NCBI GenBank assembly: GCA_021852275.1
Contig: JAJZNX010000058.1
Span: 1 to 37,099 of the forward strand
Length of the DNA: 37,099 bases
DNA from: Planctomycetota bacterium
Lineage (GTDB): Bacteria > Planctomycetota > Phycisphaerae > WQYP01
Direction: 5' to 3'
Shown: positions 5,574 to 21,801 of the stretch, in pieces
Numbering within the stretch: position 1 is the stretch's first letter
How the letters are laid out: each line of letters opens with the position of its first letter
Notes under the pieces: model-generated
Seen by the model: only the letters and a program-made list of their open reading frames with translations
Databases searched by the model: none
What the model was told of the DNA's origin: nothing
Program-made: the position numbers and the translations under genes

Positions 5574-6803
5574 ATGACAAGTGGAAACATGGCCGGTGGA
5601 AAATCCGCTGGCGCGCTGTATTTACAGCAGGCGCTGGTGCGTCTGGAGGGTTTGAAAAAATCGCTTGGAGAGTTGGTGGACATGAGCCGGAAAATGGCCG
5701 AGCCTTTGTTGGCCGGTGGGGCATTATTTACGCCGCCAACAACCTCCTGGTTCGGCAGCGAATATGGCTATCGTGCCGGCGGTCTTATGGGCTTGCATGA
5801 TGCCAATTATGTTCCCCAAAGCGATAAAGATGTGGCGTTTTTGGCTTTGCCGGATCCACGCCGCACCACCACTTCGGCGGGGGAGTTGCTGGAAAAGCTG
5901 GCGGCTTCGCCGGCCCGGTTGTTTGTGGTGGGCACGCCGGCGGAACTTCCGAAGAGTATGCATAAGAGAATCGCGGGTTTTACCGGCGGTGATGTGTCGA
6001 CACAGGGAGAGTACCGCTTTGGGGAGTTTAGCCCATTAGTTGGGTTTCGGGCATTCGAACAGTTTGCACGGATGTGGATGACCACTGGCGAGCTTATTTC
6101 TGCGTGTATTTGCGCCGGCAAAATGCCAATGATCTGGATGAGCGTGTGGCTGGAAGGTGCGTTTGTCCGCAACGCCAGTTTTATGAAACATAACAATACG
6201 CAAGAACCGTGGTTTTACCCGATGTTTCATGAGAACCGCTATATTCCGCCGCTGGAGCCTGGCTACGTCGGGCAGGCTTTTTTGGCGGCGCTAACGGCGA
6301 TTCATGGGCGTTTGGAATCGCAACTGACTCTGCTTCGGCAAGCGGGTACATGGATGGCTGCGGCACACGGCAGCGGCCATAAAGTTCATGCCATGGCGGT
6401 GGGCCATGCGTATCCAAAGATACTCGATATTTCCAGGCCGGAGCTCTATCCCGTTCGATGGTGGCCGCCGGTCAGTGATCTCACGCGGGCGGTACCGATG
6501 GAAATCGGCAAAGATGAAGTGGTGCTTCACCTCGGCTATGCGCCGGTGGATATCGGCGCTGTGGAGCGCATTGTAAATCGTGGCGTAAAGCTCATCTATA
6601 CTACGCCCTATGGCCGCCCGGCAGCGCTCAAAGACCATTCGAATTTGCTGTGGTTTGACTTACCCTGGCGGCCCACGGATGCTACGGTGGATGTACCGGG
6701 TTATTCGGTTCGTATTTTACCGATGAGTTCCTGTGCACAAACCCTGGCCTATAACGTCATCATGGCGGAATTTGCCCAGGCCATGCGGTGGCCACGCAAG
6801 TAA
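5574..6803 (+). CDS. uncharacterised SIS-like protein, possibly two degenerate SIS domains
   Basis: A cytoplasmic-looking protein of 409 residues with no signal peptide or clear membrane helices. Two parts look related to sugar isomerase domains. Around residues 85-120 there is a beta-alpha pattern ending RLFVVGTPAELP. Around 305-400 there is VVLHLGYAPVDIGAVE, a strand KLIYTTPYG, and a Ser-containing C-terminal helix (MSSCAQTLAYNVIMAEF) like that ending UPF0309-type SIS proteins. The canonical glycine-rich phosphosugar loop is not clear, so one or both sites may be inactive or altered. It lies 55 bases after the SIS gene and is probably its operon partner. The start at 5574 has a weak CAGGGG site. 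The SIS relation is an inference from pattern only; the function is unknown. Confidence 0.6.
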   Translation: MTSGNMAGGKSAGALYLQQALVRLEGLKKSLGELVDMSRKMAEPLLAGGALFTPPTTSWFGSEYGYRAGGLMGLHDANYVPQSDKDVAFLALPDPRRTTTSAGELLEKLAASPARLFVVGTPAELPKSMHKRIAGFTGGDVSTQGEYRFGEFSPLVGFRAFEQFARMWMTTGELISACICAGKMPMIWMSVWLEGAFVRNASFMKHNNTQEPWFYPMFHENRYIPPLEPGYVGQAFLAALTAIHGRLESQLTLLRQAGTWMAAAHGSGHKVHAMAVGHAYPKILDISRPELYPVRWWPPVSDLTRAVPMEIGKDEVVLHLGYAPVDIGAVERIVNRGVKLIYTTPYGRPAALKDHSNLLWFDLPWRPTDATVDVPGYSVRILPMSSCAQTLAYNVIMAEFAQAMRWPRK

Positions 6804-6818
6804 ATGCCGGCATTACTT
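6798..6818. terminator. possible bidirectional terminator between convergent genes
   Basis: AAGTAAATGCC (6798-6808) and GGCATTACTT (6809-6818) form an inverted repeat with one bulged A and almost no loop, followed by two further T. It spans the two convergent stop codons (6803 on plus, 6813 on minus). The stem is AT-rich outside its core and the T-run is short, so this is a weak call. Confidence 0.3.
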
Positions 6819-8687
6819 TTCAACGGGTACCACAATGCCGCGGATAATCGTGCGCTGGGCCAGCAGAAAAATCATCAGGGTGGGAATGCTGGCGATCAGC
6901 ACCGCGGCGTAGATAGCGGCAGGGGTGGATTGCTGTTCAAACTGGTAAAGCCATACCGTGATGAGCCACATGTGTTGGGCGGGGCATACAATTAAAGCCC
7001 CAAGAAAATTGGTGTAGGCACCTGCAAATGTGCCCAGTGCAACCCAGGCCAGAATAGGCTTGCTCAGGGCCAGGGTAATTTGAAAAAACATGCGAAGTTC
7101 GGACGCGCCATCAATGCGGCCGGCTTCGTAAAGCTCCCGTGGCAGAGAATCAAAGAAACCTTTGAGCAAAAATATCATGTAACCGTTGGCGATGGAAGGC
7201 AGTACCAGTGCACCGAAAGTGTTCAGCAGGTCCAGGTGTCGCAGTATGATGAATACCGGAATCATGGTGACCATGGGTGGGAAAGCCATGGTGGCCATGA
7301 GAATCAGCAGCATTTTGTACGTACCAGGCAGGCGGAAGCGGGACATGGCGTAAGCGGCCAGCGGATTCACCAGCAGTGCGGCCAGAATGGCCAGTGCGCA
7401 ATAGATGACAGTATTGACCATAGCTCGCCCATGAAAGATCATCTGGTCAAAAACGTTAACGTAGTTAAGCGTGGCAAAATCCCAACGCAACTTGAGACTA
7501 TGTTGACGTACGTATTGATACGTAAGTTGGTCCATGGGAATTTGCGCCTGGGCGAAGCTTTTGTAATGGGTGTCTTCGGTGGCATTCAGTTGGGCCAGAT
7601 TGTGGTGGTAATGCTGCCGCAACCACGCTCTCCATAAATATCCCGGACCGGTCAGACGGTAGGTGGATGGATTTAAAGTGTGAAGAAATGCGGCATAATC
7701 TTGAGCTTGGTCGCCCCCAAACCACTGGCCACGGGGTAGTGGAATCACTCCAAACGATGGATAGTGACCATGCCAACTGATATTCAGGGCCGCGATATTG
7801 GTGTAGCGTCCGGCCAAAAAGGTGTGCCAGGCGATGACGCTTACTCCCTTAAGCAACACAAATGAGGGATTCAGATCCTGGTGTACAAAACTCATCCATT
7901 CATGGCGAAGCAACGGATGATTAACCGGGGGTACACGGTCCGGAAGTACAAACGTGGTGAATGATCGCACGTGATGCACGTGGGCCTGATTGTATCCGGC
8001 CACGCTAGAAAGACCATATTTCGGTTGAATTATGGTGGCAAGAAAATAGCCGGTGATGGAACAAAAGTAGCGTTCGGCTACCGGCGACTGGCGCAGTAAT
8101 TGGAAATAAGCCGTCCAGATGGGATCGGGATGATAGTTGAACCGCTGGGAGAGCCAGTTCGGTGGGGTTGGTGTGATATCGTTCCAGGAGTTGATCGGAG
8201 CACCGATGGCCCGGCCGAAAGCCTGCAGACTGCCGTGAAAGTCCGCGGCCAGCCGCGTCCGCAGCCGCCGCAAATTGGCCGGCGTCGTGTTAAAGCCATG
8301 AATTCCGCCCAATACCCACCAATAACGCGAAACTTTGACGTGATCAAGAAAATCCCGTAAATCGGCAATTCGACCGGGAATAAGCCGGACGGGCACACGG
8401 GCATCCTTAAAAGTGTAGGCATGTTGGTGGGTGTTTTGGTTGAGAAGACTAACGCTTTGATCGTACTTGGCTTCAAGAAATTTTCGGTAAAGACTCTTTT
8501 CGCTGGTTAAAAAAGAGGGAATTAAGCCCAGGCTGGATGAATCCATTTCGCTTCGCATGGAGCCGGAAAGCATCAACAGAAAAGGATAAATCATACTCAC
8601 GCCGCCCAAAGTCAGTACTAAGATCATGCCCAGGTGCAGCAATTTGCCGCGAAAGTTTCGTGTTTCAGCTCGTGAAATAATGGGCAT
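6813..8687 (-). CDS. sugar ABC transporter permease, MalG-type, with a ~370-residue insertion
   Basis: An inner-membrane subunit of a carbohydrate importer (CUT1-like), 624 residues long where the family usually has about 280. Residues 17-41 are TM1. Residues from about 45 to 415 form a large, mostly hydrophilic region rich in Trp, Tyr and His that normal MalG proteins lack; by topology it should lie outside the cytoplasmic membrane. The typical core then follows: helices from about 423, and the cytoplasmic EAA loop at 518-537 (ELYEAGRIDGASELRMFFQI) that contacts the ATPase. The start at 8687 lies 18 bases after the stop of the upstream fusion subunit, so the two are co-transcribed. The permease identity is secure. 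The role of the insert (substrate capture, docking of the tethered binding domain) is inference. Confidence 0.85.
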   Translation of the reverse strand: MPIISRAETRNFRGKLLHLGMILVLTLGGVSMIYPFLLMLSGSMRSEMDSSSLGLIPSFLTSEKSLYRKFLEAKYDQSVSLLNQNTHQHAYTFKDARVPVRLIPGRIADLRDFLDHVKVSRYWWVLGGIHGFNTTPANLRRLRTRLAADFHGSLQAFGRAIGAPINSWNDITPTPPNWLSQRFNYHPDPIWTAYFQLLRQSPVAERYFCSITGYFLATIIQPKYGLSSVAGYNQAHVHHVRSFTTFVLPDRVPPVNHPLLRHEWMSFVHQDLNPSFVLLKGVSVIAWHTFLAGRYTNIAALNISWHGHYPSFGVIPLPRGQWFGGDQAQDYAAFLHTLNPSTYRLTGPGYLWRAWLRQHYHHNLAQLNATEDTHYKSFAQAQIPMDQLTYQYVRQHSLKLRWDFATLNYVNVFDQMIFHGRAMVNTVIYCALAILAALLVNPLAAYAMSRFRLPGTYKMLLILMATMAFPPMVTMIPVFIILRHLDLLNTFGALVLPSIANGYMIFLLKGFFDSLPRELYEAGRIDGASELRMFFQITLALSKPILAWVALGTFAGAYTNFLGALIVCPAQHMWLITVWLYQFEQQSTPAAIYAAVLIASIPTLMIFLLAQRTIIRGIVVPVEK

Positions 8688-8705: not shown

Positions 8706-11528
8706 TCAGCGGCCGCCCTTGAACTCGGCCCTGGACAGCATTTTGAGCTGGGTGGCGGTAAACCAGATTAGAACAATGCCCAGCAGCCAGGCCATGGCTG
8801 TACCGACGCCGAATTGCAGTTTAAGGAAAGTGCGGAAGAAAATTTCCAGCGGAATGATGAGTGTGGCGTGATTCGGTCCACCTCCGGTTAAGGCCAGAAT
8901 GTAATCGGTACCGCCTTGAAAAGCGGCGATGACCGCGGCGATAAATTGTATGACGATCAGATACTTCAATTGGGGTAACGTAATATAGAATATTTTATGC
9001 CAGATACGTGCTCCATCCATTTCCGCCGCTTCGTAGAGTTCGTCAGGGACCGTTTTCAACGCTGCCAGGTACAAAATGGAGCCGGCTCCGGAACCCGCCC
9101 AGATCGTGGGCAATACCACGCAAAGCATGGCCATGCCCGGCGATTGTATCCATCCCAGCGGGGTCAGATGGAAGGGGCCGATCAATCCTTTCAAAATTCC
9201 CAGAGCCGCCATCGGGCCGCCTCCGCGGAAGCCGATCACTATGGGTTTGAGCGTCACGGCCACCAAAGTTCCCGCCACCACCCACAGCGAGACTTTGAGA
9301 AAGCGGCTCATTTCCTCAATTCGGATCGGCAGCATGATGAGAATCGCAATAAATGCAAGCCACAGACCCAGGGCCAACAGTTTTATGAGGGTGGCAGGTA
9401 TTGGCCCGCATAAATTCAACACCAGCAGAAGGTGGTTAAGTACGCCATATTTGGATGGATCAAAAAGCTGCCGCCACAGGAACATAATCAACACCCCGCT
9501 GATCACCGAGGGCAAATAATAGACAGTGCGGAAAATATATTTCAGCGGAGCGGTGGGAACCTCCTGGAGTAAAATGGCCAGCAGAATGGGCGGCCAGAAT
9601 CCAAGGCCAATGGTCAGGGCAACGAAATAAATGGTCCGTTCGAAAGATGTCCAGAACCGGGCATCAAAAAGCACCTTGGCAAAATTGTCTACGCCTGCCC
9701 AGGCGCTGTTTCGGACCAGTTCAAAATGCGAGAAAGCCATGCCCAGTCCGCCCGCAAGTGGAATATAGGCCCAGACAAGCATCAGCAGGAATGCCGGCAG
9801 CAAAAGTGCATATCCACCCCAAAGTCGCCGCCATCCGGACCGGCTGGTGAAAACTGCATCCGCGCGGGTGAAGTACCGCCACACGCGCCAAAGCTCAAAC
9901 AAAAACAGGGCACCAATCACCAAAATGGTAATTGTCGCAATGATTCTACGTATTCGCATAACGTTAAGCGGTATGGCCCCCAGCAGTTGATAGTTAATGC
10001 GCTGCGAAGCCTGCTTGAGCAAACGGCTGATTTGTGCAATCGCCTGGTGACGCGGCACGTTGCCTAAATTATGTTCCAATGCGGAGTTAATGGGCGTGGA
10101 CATGGGAGCATAGATATTCTGTGTGTTGTGCTGGTAGGGTTCCGGTACGCCGTTGGCCAGTGCAATGTCAAAGGCTTTAGCCCATCCGGCGGGCACTTGA
10201 CGCAGCAGCCAGGTATAGCCAAACTTTCGCAGCAGATCAGGATTTACGAATTGCCCGTACCCGGACTGCACAAAAGTTTGTACGCTTAACCGCTGGGCCT
10301 GCGGACTGGTGATAAACCAGATATAGCGCATCACGCCGATCTGTTGCTGCGGCGTGGATTTGGCAAATACACCGAGCATGGTCGCGTTTAATTCGCCGCT
10401 GCTGGTTCCGCCGGGCGGATGCGGTATTGGAGCAATACCCACTATCTGCGGGTTAGTGGCCTGAATTAATTCCTGTGACAGGGTACCAAACATCATGGCA
10501 ATATGACCCTGGCTCCAAAGCCAGAACATATTACTGCCACCGTTTACACTAACATAGGCGGCTCCGCGAATGCTTTTTCCTGCAGTGGTGAAACGACCCT
10601 GGGCAAGTTTACAAAAATAATAAATGGCCTGAGCTGATTGTGGCGAATCGTAAACCGAATGCCATTGGCCCATGGAGTTTCGGGCAATGATGCGTCCGCC
10701 ACTGGATGCCAGCAGTGGGAACATGCTGTAACTGATGTCGCGACCGCCACCAAAGGCAATACCGTATTGACGTTGGGATGGAATGGTCAACTTGCGGGCA
10801 TCTTGAAGTAATTGATCCCATGTGCGCGGTGGCTTGCGCGGATTCAGCCCCGCAGCTCGGAACAGATCCTTGCGATACAGTAAGGCACTAACCAGAATGC
10901 TGGTGGGCATCGACCAGACGTGCTTTTTATGTCTGTGATCGCCGTGGCGATAAATTACCGGCCAGGCGGCTTTGGGTACGCGCCGGTGCATAAGTTTCAG
11001 GGCCTGGGCGATGTCGGCAGGACTGGGGTTGGCCATCCATTGGCCTTGGGCATTGACGTGCCGCTGCGCCGGGTTATTGCTGAGCACTCGGGCTAACAGC
11101 ACTTCCATGGGGGCTAAAAATCCATGTTCAATGTAGGTGGAAGACTGCCGGAAGTTTACGTAAATGGCATTCGGAGGCATGCCTGCTGCAATGGCCATCA
11201 GTGGGCCGGTATCCATGGACGATCCCTGGATGGTCGGCATGGCAAACGCTTTGATCTTGTATTGAGGATATTTTTTGCGAAAGGCCCGCAGCACACGTCG
11301 TGCGGCCATGGAACCCACATCGGTACTGCCAGGATACGGCAAACCTGCGGCTACAAATTCGATGGGGGTAGAGGCGGCATTGACCAGCAAGCCTCTCATC
11401 AGCAGTACGGCCAGAAACGCCAGGCAACTTGTGGAGAGCACTTTCCTCCCGCCCCTGGGAACGCAATGACGGCGGATTCCAGGGCCGGCCCACCAACCAC
11501 TGTGGCTATACCAGTTGATGGGGAGCAT
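8706..11528 (-). CDS. fused solute-binding protein / MalF-type ABC permease
   Basis: A 940-residue fusion. Residues 29-51 are a hydrophobic signal or anchor. Residues from about 55 to 510 are an extracellular solute-binding domain (family 1 type): the RKDLFRAAGLNPRKPPRTWDQL segment and the GHIAMMFGT segment are characteristic. A linker helix at 529-548 leads to a MalF-like permease: TM from about 572, the conserved YLPSVISGVLIMFLWRQLFDP region (about 671-691), and the EAA loop at 830-850 (ELYEAAEMDGARIWHKIFY). The permease part also has about 70 extra residues between 715 and 790, with hydrophobic stretches. AGGA lies 7 bases before the ATG (11528). Domain fusion places the binding protein permanently at its permease. 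No ATPase is encoded nearby, so a shared MsmK/UgpC-type ATPase is probably supplied from elsewhere. The substrate is probably a sugar. Confidence 0.87.
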   Translation of the reverse strand: MLPINWYSHSGWWAGPGIRRHCVPRGGRKVLSTSCLAFLAVLLMRGLLVNAASTPIEFVAAGLPYPGSTDVGSMAARRVLRAFRKKYPQYKIKAFAMPTIQGSSMDTGPLMAIAAGMPPNAIYVNFRQSSTYIEHGFLAPMEVLLARVLSNNPAQRHVNAQGQWMANPSPADIAQALKLMHRRVPKAAWPVIYRHGDHRHKKHVWSMPTSILVSALLYRKDLFRAAGLNPRKPPRTWDQLLQDARKLTIPSQRQYGIAFGGGRDISYSMFPLLASSGGRIIARNSMGQWHSVYDSPQSAQAIYYFCKLAQGRFTTAGKSIRGAAYVSVNGGSNMFWLWSQGHIAMMFGTLSQELIQATNPQIVGIAPIPHPPGGTSSGELNATMLGVFAKSTPQQQIGVMRYIWFITSPQAQRLSVQTFVQSGYGQFVNPDLLRKFGYTWLLRQVPAGWAKAFDIALANGVPEPYQHNTQNIYAPMSTPINSALEHNLGNVPRHQAIAQISRLLKQASQRINYQLLGAIPLNVMRIRRIIATITILVIGALFLFELWRVWRYFTRADAVFTSRSGWRRLWGGYALLLPAFLLMLVWAYIPLAGGLGMAFSHFELVRNSAWAGVDNFAKVLFDARFWTSFERTIYFVALTIGLGFWPPILLAILLQEVPTAPLKYIFRTVYYLPSVISGVLIMFLWRQLFDPSKYGVLNHLLLVLNLCGPIPATLIKLLALGLWLAFIAILIMLPIRIEEMSRFLKVSLWVVAGTLVAVTLKPIVIGFRGGGPMAALGILKGLIGPFHLTPLGWIQSPGMAMLCVVLPTIWAGSGAGSILYLAALKTVPDELYEAAEMDGARIWHKIFYITLPQLKYLIVIQFIAAVIAAFQGGTDYILALTGGGPNHATLIIPLEIFFRTFLKLQFGVGTAMAWLLGIVLIWFTATQLKMLSRAEFKGGR

Positions 11529-16799: not shown

Positions 16800-16990
16800 C
16801 AGCGTGGGTTGAGTCAGTCAGGGAGAGGGGAAGGCAGGTTCGCATGCCGGGAACGCCCGGATGTCACGATGGCTCAGCATAGTTACCTGTGTCGTTTCTT
16901 TTGGAAGTTGTACAGTGATCCGCAATTTTTTTCCGCGTGTGCCGGAGAAGTGGATCCGCTTCCTGTATTACGCTTAATGGAGATACTTCG

Positions 16991-18499
16991 ATGCTTTCAG
17001 AAAACCTGTTCTCACGGGAGCGGATACGCTGGTTTTCGATCATGGCTTTGGTCATGATGGTGATCATGCTCGCCGCTCCCTTGTTCGCGCAAACAACAAC
17101 CGCTCCGGCTCTGCCAACCAGTGCGCCGGCGGCGGTCAATTATGCCACTCCCACATGGCTATCGCATGGCGATACGGCCTGGCAGCTCATTGCCGCCACG
17201 ATCGTAGGCATGCAAAGCATTCCGGGTTTGGCCATCCTTTACGGCGGCGTGGTGAAGAAAAAGTGGGCCGTCAATTCCGCCTTCATGGTGTTTTACGCTT
17301 TTTCAGCCGTGCTTATCGCGTGGCTGCTGTGGGCTTACAACATGGGCTTTGGTCCGCAGTGGACGGTGTTTCTCGGACACCCGACGCCGGTGGCCAGTAT
17401 GCTGGATGAATTAAATCAGGCCATTGTGCCGGGTCCGAATCCGGCGTCCCCCTTTGCTACGGCGGCGTTTCCGATGGCCGCGATGGTTTACTTCCAGTTT
17501 GTATTTGCGGCCATTACGCTGATTTTAATTGCCGGATCGCTTTTTGGTCGCATGAGTTTTGTGGCCTGGATGCTGTTTGTTCCGCTGTGGCTGACTTTTT
17601 CCTACACCGTTGGGGCCTTCACCTTGTGGGGCGGAGGCTGGTTGGCTCAATGGGGCGTGATTGACTATTCAGGTGGATATGTGATTCACCTGGCTGCGGG
17701 TGCCAGTGCCTTCACTGCCGCGGCAATCATCGGCCCGCGACTTCCGCAGGATCGCAGCAACTTCAAAGCTAACAATATCCTGATGGTGTTGGCCGGTGCC
17801 GGTATGGTCTGGCTGGGCTGGAACGGCTTCAACGGTGGTGATCCATATTCGGCTAATGCCGATGCCGCAGTTGCGGTCTTGAATACCAATGTGGCCACTG
17901 CCGCTGCTCTTTTGGTGTGGATGCTTTGCGATTACGCCAAATATGGCAAACCGTCAGTCCTGGGTGCGGTCAATGGTATGATTGCCGGCTTGGTGGCAAT
18001 TACACCCTCCGCCGGTGTGTGCAACGGATACGGGGCGCTGATTGTAGGATTGTGCGCCGGCACCATTCCGTGGTTCACCATGAATGTTCTTGGCTCCAAG
18101 CTTGCCATCTTCAAAAAGGTGGACGACTGCCTGGGTGTTGTGCATACGCACGGAGTGGCCGGCTTGACCGGTGGCCTGTTGGTTGGCCTCTTGGCCACGA
18201 CTCAGGGTGAATCTGCCTTCGCGTGTGTGAATACCAACGGCGGCTTGTTTTACGGTGGTGGAATACATCAGTTGCAATTACAGCTTTGGGGTGCATTTTT
18301 CATCATTGCCCTCAATGTGATTGTGACGGCTGTAATTCTCTACGTGATCAAGATCTTTGTGCCGTTGCGCATGTCGGATGCCATGCTCAAGATTGGAGAT
18401 CATGCAGTCCACGGTGAAGAAGCTTATGGGCTTGCCGAGGACGACTACAGCGACTCAGACCCCGCAGCGGCGGGGCACGCTGCGAGTGTGTCAGTGTAA
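16991..18499 (+). CDS. amtB: ammonium transporter (AmtB family), first copy
   Basis: A polytopic inner-membrane channel for ammonium uptake, 502 residues from the ATG at 16991 (GGAG 8 bases upstream; an in-frame GTG at 16937 lacks this and would spoil the signal peptide). Residues 14-33 are a cleavable-type signal peptide ending near LFAQ, followed by a Thr/Ala/Pro linker. The Amt core has about eleven helices. Pore histidines are H233 in GGYVIHLAAG and H387 in VVHTHGVAG, the twin-His pair of the family. The short C-terminal tail contains GDHAVHGEEAYG, the segment that contacts P-II proteins. A sigma-54 promoter lies upstream and hairpins at 18508-18604 follow. It diverges clearly from the second copy at 20236. 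Confidence 0.93.
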   Translation: MLSENLFSRERIRWFSIMALVMMVIMLAAPLFAQTTTAPALPTSAPAAVNYATPTWLSHGDTAWQLIAATIVGMQSIPGLAILYGGVVKKKWAVNSAFMVFYAFSAVLIAWLLWAYNMGFGPQWTVFLGHPTPVASMLDELNQAIVPGPNPASPFATAAFPMAAMVYFQFVFAAITLILIAGSLFGRMSFVAWMLFVPLWLTFSYTVGAFTLWGGGWLAQWGVIDYSGGYVIHLAAGASAFTAAAIIGPRLPQDRSNFKANNILMVLAGAGMVWLGWNGFNGGDPYSANADAAVAVLNTNVATAAALLVWMLCDYAKYGKPSVLGAVNGMIAGLVAITPSAGVCNGYGALIVGLCAGTIPWFTMNVLGSKLAIFKKVDDCLGVVHTHGVAGLTGGLLVGLLATTQGESAFACVNTNGGLFYGGGIHQLQLQLWGAFFIIALNVIVTAVILYVIKIFVPLRMSDAMLKIGDHAVHGEEAYGLAEDDYSDSDPAAAGHAASVSV

Positions 18500-20040: not shown

Positions 20041-20235
20041 CTTATGTATTGGCGTAGCACATGGGAGATTGACATTGGTGCTTGTGTAGGCGCTGGTCAG
20101 TCTATCTATAGGTTGCTTGGCAGGCGTTGAAAAGGTTTATTCAGTACCTGCCTCCATGGTTTTGAGTGTTGAAGGTTGGGTCGACTTCTACGTGAAACCG
20201 ACCTTGGTGGAGTGGCATTAATGAAAGGAACTCAC

Positions 20236-21801
20236 ATGAAGCGTCCATTTGCTCGTCATCTTCAAGGTTTACATCGTCTAGGGCTTAGTCCGGGGCGCAG
20301 GCTCGTGGACTGGCTGCATCCCTGGAGGCCTACGGCCAGAATTTTTGTCGTAGCCGTCTTGCTGTTGGGTTGGCTTGGCTCGGCAGTTCCGTCTCTGGCC
20401 CAGACCGCAGCACCGGTCGTAACCGCCACAACCACCCAACCGGCGGTGCCAGCCAATATTACCAAGGCCATTAACACGGCGGTAGCCGCGGCGACCAGCA
20501 ATGTGCCCCCGGCCTACAACGCCGGAGACACTGCCTGGATGCTTACCTCCACGGCATTGGTCATGGTGATGATGCCCGGCCTGGCCCTTTATTACGGCGG
20601 TATTGTCCGTAAAAAGAACTGGCTGGCCACCATGTGGACTTCTTATGTAGCCTTGGGCGTGATCACGCTGCAATGGTTCATGTTCGGATACTGCCTGGCG
20701 TTCGGCCATAGTGTGCTCGGCGGCTTCATCGGGTGGAGCCCCAACACACTCTTTTTATGGAAGGATTTTAATGCCGCTGGCGGTGGTTACGTGATGGATC
20801 GGATGTCCTCGGCACCGCATACCATTCCGGATCTCGTCTTCTGTATGTTCCAGTTGATGTTTGCCATCATCACACCGGCCCTGATTGCCGGCTCGGTGGC
20901 CGAGCGCGTGAGCTTCCGTGGATTTGTGGCCTTTATTTTCCTTTGGGCCACATTTGTGTACGATCCGCTGGCCCATGCTGTGTGGGTTCCCACAGGTTGG
21001 CTGGCCCATATGGGCGCAGTGGATTTCGCCGGTGGAACCGTAGTGCATATTTCTTCGGGTGTAGCCGGTCTGGCCTTTTGTCTGGTGCTGGGAAAACGCA
21101 TTGGTTATCCCAAGCATGTCATACAACCAAATGCCTTGGGCATGACTCTCACCGGTGCAGGCTTGCTATGGTTCGGGTGGTACGGCTTTAATGCCGGATC
21201 GGCCAACGCCGCCAATAATCTGGCCTGCATGGCTTTTACCAACACCACCATCGCCACGGCTATCGGCGGTCTGGCCTGGAACTTTGCGGAATATCTGCAT
21301 CACCGCCGATGCACCACTTTGGGCATGGCCTCGGGTTTCGTGGCCGGCCTGGTGGCCATTACCCCGGCTTGCGGCTACATTCAGCCGTGGTCGGCAGCCG
21401 TGTTGGGTGTGATGGCTGGTATGGTTTGTTACTGGGGTGCTCAGATCAAAAACATCTTTGGCTACGATGATGCCTTGGATGCCTTTGGCGTGCACGCCGT
21501 CGGCGGATATTTGGGTGCGGTGATGACCGGTGTGTTTGCAGCCTACGCTACCAATTCCGCCTGCCGTGGCTGGATCATGGATGGGCACTTCGCCCAGGTG
21601 GGTCTGCAATTCCTGGCTGCCTCCAATGCTGCCATCTATTCTTTCGTGGTGTCGCTGATTCTGGCTTTGGTTCTCGATAAAACCATTGGTATCCGGGTGC
21701 CAGACCACGTCGAGATCCAGGGTTTGGATATCGGTGTCCATGGTGAAAACGGCTGGGATATCGGCACGCTGCCCGAGCCTGCGGTTTCCATGATCGCATA
21801 A
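20236..21801 (+). CDS. amtB: ammonium transporter (AmtB family), second copy
   Basis: An inner-membrane ammonium channel of 521 residues from the ATG at 20236 (AAAGGA 6 bases upstream). An ATG 15 bases earlier at 20221, with GGTGGAG 8 bases before it, is an equal alternative. There is a long N-terminal extension with a signal peptide (hydrophobic 36-53, ending near SLAQ) and a Thr/Ala/Val-rich linker. The core has the family marks: GLALYYGGIVRKKN, the AHMGAVDFAGGTVVHISSG segment with pore H271, and GVHAVGGYLG with pore H420. The tail holds GLDIGVHGENGW, the P-II contact region. It is closer to textbook AmtB than the first copy. The gene is followed by a P-II gene, the usual glnK-amtB partner but in reverse order. 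Confidence 0.94.
   Translation: MKRPFARHLQGLHRLGLSPGRRLVDWLHPWRPTARIFVVAVLLLGWLGSAVPSLAQTAAPVVTATTTQPAVPANITKAINTAVAAATSNVPPAYNAGDTAWMLTSTALVMVMMPGLALYYGGIVRKKNWLATMWTSYVALGVITLQWFMFGYCLAFGHSVLGGFIGWSPNTLFLWKDFNAAGGGYVMDRMSSAPHTIPDLVFCMFQLMFAIITPALIAGSVAERVSFRGFVAFIFLWATFVYDPLAHAVWVPTGWLAHMGAVDFAGGTVVHISSGVAGLAFCLVLGKRIGYPKHVIQPNALGMTLTGAGLLWFGWYGFNAGSANAANNLACMAFTNTTIATAIGGLAWNFAEYLHHRRCTTLGMASGFVAGLVAITPACGYIQPWSAAVLGVMAGMVCYWGAQIKNIFGYDDALDAFGVHAVGGYLGAVMTGVFAAYATNSACRGWIMDGHFAQVGLQFLAASNAAIYSFVVSLILALVLDKTIGIRVPDHVEIQGLDIGVHGENGWDIGTLPEPAVSMIA

Follow-up and report, generated by a model that had tools for sequence, protein, structure and literature searches.

The window (the whole 37,099-nucleotide stretch of DNA that was analyzed) carries two adjacent permease genes on the minus strand. 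The gene at 8706-11528 is a single uninterrupted frame of 940 codons in the ORF list and its translation, and it joins a solute-binding protein (SBP) domain to a MalF-type permease. A MalG-type permease gene lies 18 nt downstream on the same strand, and the top PDB profile match of its product is E. coli MalG (6e-20). The features of the fusion gene and the extent of its partner are as follows.

8706-11528, minus strand: SBP-permease fusion gene, 940 codons (ORF, Pfam, NCBIfam, AlphaFold2)
11373-11450, minus strand: putative Sec signal sequence, residues ~27-52 (hydropathy, read by eye)
9984-11366, minus strand: SBP_bac_1 solute-binding domain, residues 55-515 (Pfam, AlphaFold2, Foldseek)
9858-9968, minus strand: extra membrane helix TM0, residues 521-557 (hydropathy, AlphaFold2, dN/dS 0.10-0.12)
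8721-9839, minus strand: UgpA/MalF-type permease domain, residues 564-936 (Pfam, NCBIfam, AlphaFold2)
9219-9404, minus strand: two added helices (709-736, 742-770) between permease core TM3 and TM4 (hydropathy, alignment, AlphaFold2)
8973-9035, minus strand: EAA (coupling) loop of the fusion protein, residues 832-852, YEAAEMDGARIWHKIFYITLP (alignment A1)
6813-8687, minus strand: MalG-type partner permease, 624 codons (Pfam, NCBIfam, PDB profile)

Searches of domain and structure databases, which an earlier note on this DNA had proposed, matched SBP_bac_1, a CUT1-type permease and a maltose-type SBP fold. The Pfam match to SBP_bac_1 (E=8.8e-18) covers residues 169-412, and NCBIfam gives a UgpB-like match at residues 200-249. 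A Foldseek search of this domain against the PDB gave sugar SBPs of maltose type, such as MalE3 of T. maritima (E=3e-15; TM-score of 0.76 on the target). Toward the C-terminal end, BPD_transp_1 matches residues 723-924 with E=1.1e-5, which is 0.7 bits below the Pfam gathering score, and NCBIfam places a UgpA-like match at 726-931 (8.6e-19) and a MalF-like match at 792-887. Residues E833, A834, A835, D838, G839 and A840 of the EAA loop are invariant in alignment A1.

The AlphaFold2 model of the fusion protein, made from a 40-sequence alignment (mean pLDDT 85, pTM 0.78), assigns residues 56-515 to the SBP fold and 564-932 to the permease; between them run a long helix (521-557) and a short link in the cytoplasm. 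In this model, TM0 is predicted to tether the SBP domain and to bring the chain back into the cytoplasm. The predicted topology is self-consistent, with a signal sequence, the SBP domain outside, TM0 running inward, and a permease that begins inside. No lipobox was seen by eye in the putative signal sequence at residues ~27-52. Residues 1-54 are weakly conserved (dN/dS 0.6-1.0 in the window lineage), and because this stretch is little constrained, the listed ATG is doubtful and the real start may lie further downstream. The uninterrupted frame, a binding domain at about residues 55-510, and a permease with an EAA loop at 830-850 had all been proposed in the earlier note and were borne out, the loop being intact at 832-852; the joining helix was also recovered, with limits of 521-557 in the model in place of the proposed 529-548.

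Among the subclades compared, that of the window has a two-helix insert in the MalF half, between TM3 and TM4. Another subclade (L044-L047) has a two-helix insert in the corresponding place of the MalG half instead (alignment A2, columns ~530-592).

Conservation and disruption of the fused frame

A sequencing or assembly error that joined two separate genes, named in the earlier note as a way in which the fusion could be false, had to be weighed for a window that is a MAG contig. Full-length orthologues in the same frame are present in the independent assemblies of two sister species (G001 and G003), at 84% identity, and the frame is also continuous in more than 25 other loci. Identity over the continuous fusion frame falls to 53% in G057 and to 30-40% in many further families. 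In comparisons of the window with G001 and G003, dN/dS is 0.10-0.11 for the SBP domain, 0.10-0.12 for TM0 and the linker, and 0.095 for the TMD. The similarity of the TM0 and linker values to those of the flanking domains implies that the junction is held by selection about as strictly as they are. Thus, frame conservation in sister species and distant relatives and the junction dN/dS rule out such an error, to which we give practically no chance.

Disrupted copies raise a second alternative, that the fused gene is what remains of an importer that is decaying or no longer works. Orthologues in three close relatives are disrupted (loci L027, L030 and L011 of G004, G002 and G018): in the first, the fusion gene contains a nonsense codon and malG a 1-nt deletion; the second has a clean 188-nt deletion over TM1, and the third an in-frame TAG. 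The fused frame of copy 3 in G149 is broken by a frameshift, and in G584 (L173:2715-5603) an in-frame TAG interrupts the gene where TM1 begins and is followed after three bases by an ATG. Against decay, dN/dS is near 0.1 across all parts in the window lineage, and even the disrupted G004 copy is dominated by third-position changes (95/57/296). We therefore regard decay as very improbable. Errors in MAG sequences may account for part of the disruptions. From their sequences, the G149 copy 3 and G584 genes, which are apparent cases of a separate SBP, look like broken fused frames; the TAG and ATG of G584 could possibly also be a natural split in which the SBP is still anchored by TM0.

The window's genome holds a second fused CUT1 gene (family 2; G000:C85:138975-141388, loci L031 and L089), which is frameshifted into parts of 649 and 305 aa. 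Its counterpart is one frame of 813-853 aa in four sister species.

Distribution of fused genes in Planctomycetota

Window-type fusions (family 1) were found in 25 of 298 genomes of the class and in 18 of 219 genera, and the pair of fusion and MalG genes is kept across many families. For the phylum, a family-2 profile was run over 392 genomes, followed by ORF checks. Counting families 1 and 2 together, at least 33 of these genomes encode one ORF with both CUT1 domains, and about six further genomes have long frames beyond those ORF-checked. Fused CUT1 SBP-permease genes belong to at least two permease lineages. These surveys of class and phylum imply that the fusion is not a one-off, and they rule out a single-gene oddity. 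A survey of SBP_bac_1 plus BPD_transp_1 fusions across Planctomycetota, as the earlier note had suggested, thus finds the architecture to be recurrent, and its expectation that such fusions are much rarer among CUT1 systems fails in so far as the present gene is far from isolated. One fused homologue (L048:5806-10290, G035) is 1,495 aa long and has a much enlarged SBP region.

Family-1 fusions form one clade (SH-aLRT 99-100). A first tree of fused and unfused genes needed several changes between the two states; when long branches were removed, three sufficed, and a single fused clade was not rejected (AU p=0.27). Because of this result, we do not claim that the fusion originated repeatedly.

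The search beyond the phylum covered plasmids and is not a survey of other phyla. In tblastn against plasmids, 0 of 1,563 matching records reached 80% coverage of the window protein, compared to 169 of 2,471 for the family-2 protein. Six plasmid matches outside Planctomycetota (five to the family-2 protein and one to the window protein) were inspected, and the fusion was absent in all of them. The SBP is annotated as a separate gene in two Enterococcus plasmid records and one from Deinococcus, and permease ORFs of 310-322 aa occur in plasmid records from Rhizobium, Sinorhizobium, Subdoligranulum and Deinococcus.

Module array in the MalG partner

The MalG partner, whose repeat domain went unmentioned in the earlier note on the fusion, has a P1 domain of ~350 residues between TM1 and TM2.

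7458-8519, minus strand: periplasmic loop P1 domain of MalG, residues 57-410 (AlphaFold2; dN/dS 0.12-0.14)
8397-8510, minus strand: module 1 (partial), residues 60-97 (module HMM)
8166-8372, minus strand: module 2, residues 106-174 (module HMM)
7932-8141, minus strand: module 3, residues 183-252 (module HMM)
7731-7928, minus strand: module 4, residues 254-319 (module HMM)
7536-7736, minus strand: module 5, residues 318-384 (module HMM)
7068-7130, minus strand: EAA loop of the MalG partner, residues 520-540 (alignment A2)

About five modules, which share the motif [FW]LxxKYgdIxxLNxxygTxYxSFxxI and resemble a 40-residue segment of GH42 beta-galactosidase, are present in the window copy. The AlphaFold2 model, made from nine sequences, shows the insert as tandem helix-strand-helix-helix units, with pLDDT of 70-93 over most of 60-410. 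The membrane domain of MalG was modelled poorly (pLDDT 30-50, unreliable), and this model therefore does not fix how the insert is placed with respect to the membrane. In the window lineage, dN/dS is 0.12-0.14 for the P1 insert and 0.03-0.04 for the MalG TMD.

In E. coli, the MalF-P2 loop lies between core TM1 and TM2 and is the counterpart of MalG-P1. Because the module domain occupies the MalG-P1 loop, the simplest idea is that it serves in docking or orientation; the array would hold or orient the tethered receptor, as the E. coli MalF-P2 loop does. MalE of E. coli is reported to contact MalF-P2 and MalG-P1 (Daus 2007, by its title as cited in PMC3150292).

The main rival to the docking role is glycan capture: the array would be a piece of a glycosidase, recruited as a surface that binds carbohydrate in advance, close to the tethered SBP. 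A profile built from 16 repeats of seven loci matched in the PDB only glycosidases and their close kin (GH42, GH50 agarases, a beta-amylase, one GH167 enzyme and one glucosyltransferase; best E=1.1e-4), among them residues 150-195 of the Thermus enzyme 1kwg, a segment with the motif WLxxKYGDIxxLNxxYGTxYxSFxxI. Pfam GH42 matched the MalG repeats of two relatives (2.8e-10 and 8.3e-9), over short parts only of the 376-position profile (153-206 or 151-260), and all Foldseek matches of the insert were to glycosidases of GH42-like kind. On the other hand, those Foldseek matches have E >1 and are not significant, the GH42 match of the window copy is insignificant as well (E=3.8), and the likeness covers ~40 residues without a global fold match. 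No TIM barrel was found in the insert by model, profile or Foldseek, and a five-residue stretch of the enzyme is absent from the modules in the alignment. The missing barrel and the five missing residues imply that the array is not an enzyme: unlike the glycosidase, it consists of a short fragment repeated in tandem within a permease loop. Thus, membership of the insert in the GH42 enzymes was rejected for want of a complete TIM barrel with catalytic glutamates, and a motif-level relation was kept. Glycan capture in place of docking is a serious possibility that we nevertheless hold to be unlikely.

The modules go with the window's fusion family. MalG proteins were sorted into families by their membrane domain alone, and duplicate rows were removed. 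The module HMM matched 40 of 41 distinct MalG loci of the window's family, with one to seven modules each, the exception being an N-terminally cut fragment; it matched 0 of 62 MalG rows of the other type. Since the HMM was trained on seven of the window-family loci, matches in these seven follow from the training itself; among the loci on which it was not trained, distant members match too. Wherever both genes could be read, the MalF-type partner of a module-bearing MalG is of the fused type. Other fused lineages have no module array, which implies that tethering does not require it. A general tie between enlarged MalG P1 loops and the fusion was rejected, because P1 inserts of unrelated kinds are present in unfused systems too (e.g., L128, L132, L134 and L138). 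The MalG insert had no match in the plasmid search. A MalG-type partner in G060 (L040:1-3900) has an apparent insert of >800 residues between TM1 and TM2.

Proposed importer and comparison with known systems

We consider it likely that 8706-11528 and 6813-8687 specify the membrane subunits of a CUT1-type (MalFGK2-like) importer whose receptor is tethered, whose MalG bears a periplasmic domain, and whose MalK-type ATPase is shared; within this reading, the docking step, the choice of ATPase and the substrate are inferences. In the periplasm, the sugar-binding domain, which TM0 and then a short stretch in the cytoplasm connect with TM1 of the MalF-type half, would pass sugar to the MalF-MalG heterodimer. 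Because the receptor is fused to the MalF half of the heterodimer, there would be one receptor per transporter. By analogy with OpuA, this receptor may alternate between capture and docking inside one complex. The 1:1 ratio and the dispensable diffusible receptor, both proposed in the earlier note, would follow from the fused anatomy, although a free SBP could conceivably act in trans.

Neither a linked ATPase gene nor a free SBP gene is present in the window. The sole TOBE_2 (MalK-type) ATPase match in the genome, which is 82% complete, is an unlinked 377-aa protein on G000:C85 with readable Walker A, signature and Walker B motifs. This ATPase, probably common to other sugar importers, would supply the energy of ATP, and the complex would consist of the fusion protein, MalG and two copies of the C85 ATPase. 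MsmX/MsiK-type ATPases are shared among importers (PMC11466899, PMC3924187).

It might also be that the tethered SBP is mainly a sensor and that the complex reports sugar to a regulator with little transport, given the general reasoning that covalent 1:1 receptors capture less than abundant free SBPs. This is very improbable in our view: EAA loops are conserved in both permeases (alignments A1 and A2), the permease cores are strongly conserved (the MalG TMD has a low dN/dS), and Pfam detects no signalling domain in the fusion or the MalG partner. Purifying selection across the SBP domain, linker, TMD and MalG insert is consistent with an importer.

Like the CUT1 (TC 3.A.1.1) systems MalFGK2-MalE and UgpBAEC of E. 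coli, the proposed importer combines an SBP_bac_1 receptor fold with MalF/UgpA-type and MalG/UgpE-type permeases that have EAA loops. The genome also encodes a MalK-type ATPase, unlinked to these two genes, as a candidate partner. Unlike in those systems, the receptor is fused to the MalF half through TM0, and the large periplasmic domain sits in loop P1 of MalG rather than in loop P2 of MalF. A separate soluble or lipid-anchored receptor, a usual but not strictly defining CUT1 trait, is thus replaced by one 940-codon frame. The family-2 fused CUT1 genes of Planctomycetota have the same order of SBP, TM0 and permease, mostly in 755-950 aa. In contrast to the window's family, they belong to other permease clades, and their MalG P1 is normal or has an unrelated insert without modules.

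OpuA, GlnPQ and ArtP are published cases of a tethered SBP; the earlier note had pointed to known fusions in glutamine and glycine-betaine systems. In OpuA, the SBD is tethered by a short linker and an anchoring helix (PMC11065425). The chimeric SBD-translocator importers OpuA, GlnPQ and ArtRQP have an SBD covalently linked to the permease (PMC11466899, PMC8025302), and ArtRQP of B. subtilis has been called unique among type I importers for its tethered SBP (PMC11466899). The present protein shares the covalent link of SBD to TMD; its SBP and TMD match CUT1 and not the glycine-betaine or polar-amino-acid families. Compared to OpuA and GlnPQ, with two or four SBDs per complex, the MalG partner has no SBP domain by Pfam. 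Since only one of two non-identical permeases bears an SBD, the complex would have one receptor, not two or more.

Tethered SBPs as such are therefore known; we found no description in the open-access literature of a CUT1 SBP-permease fusion or of the MalG P1 modules. The possibility raised in the earlier note, that the architecture is common and already described for CUT1 importers, thus holds for its commonness in the phylum and not, among open-access papers, for a published description. We tentatively suggest, as an idea that is somewhat doubtful, that CUT1 importers include a class, so far encountered only in Planctomycetota, with the receptor in MalF, no diffusible receptor, and a MalG P1 array of modules that may derive from a GH42-like glycosidase and may act as a cradle for the receptor or a guide for glycans.

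Tethered receptors have so far been studied almost solely in osmolyte and amino-acid importers. A tethered family of MalFGK2 type, spread across a phylum, is natural material for three questions: for what reason free SBP is in large excess in most importers, what is lost or gained by fixing the ratio at 1:1, and how a receptor docks when the large periplasmic domain sits on the opposite subunit. Moreover, sugar importers of Planctomycetota will be miscounted if an inventory seeks separate SBP genes.

The substrate is probably an oligosaccharide, as suggested by neighboring genes. Family-1 loci of several relatives lie beside GH95, GH31/Melibiase, GH3 and GH42M glycoside hydrolases, and the window has a weak Melibiase match, an SIS sugar isomerase and a galactokinase-like GHMP kinase (Pfam, NCBIfam). 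Beside the SIS isomerase, 5574-6803 on the plus strand encodes a 409-aa protein that is conserved in the genus and has no Pfam match; its sole NCBIfam match is a weak one of the C-terminus to a sugar isomerase domain. Elsewhere in the window, two ammonium transporter genes lie near each other on the plus strand, at 16937-18499 and 20176-21801.
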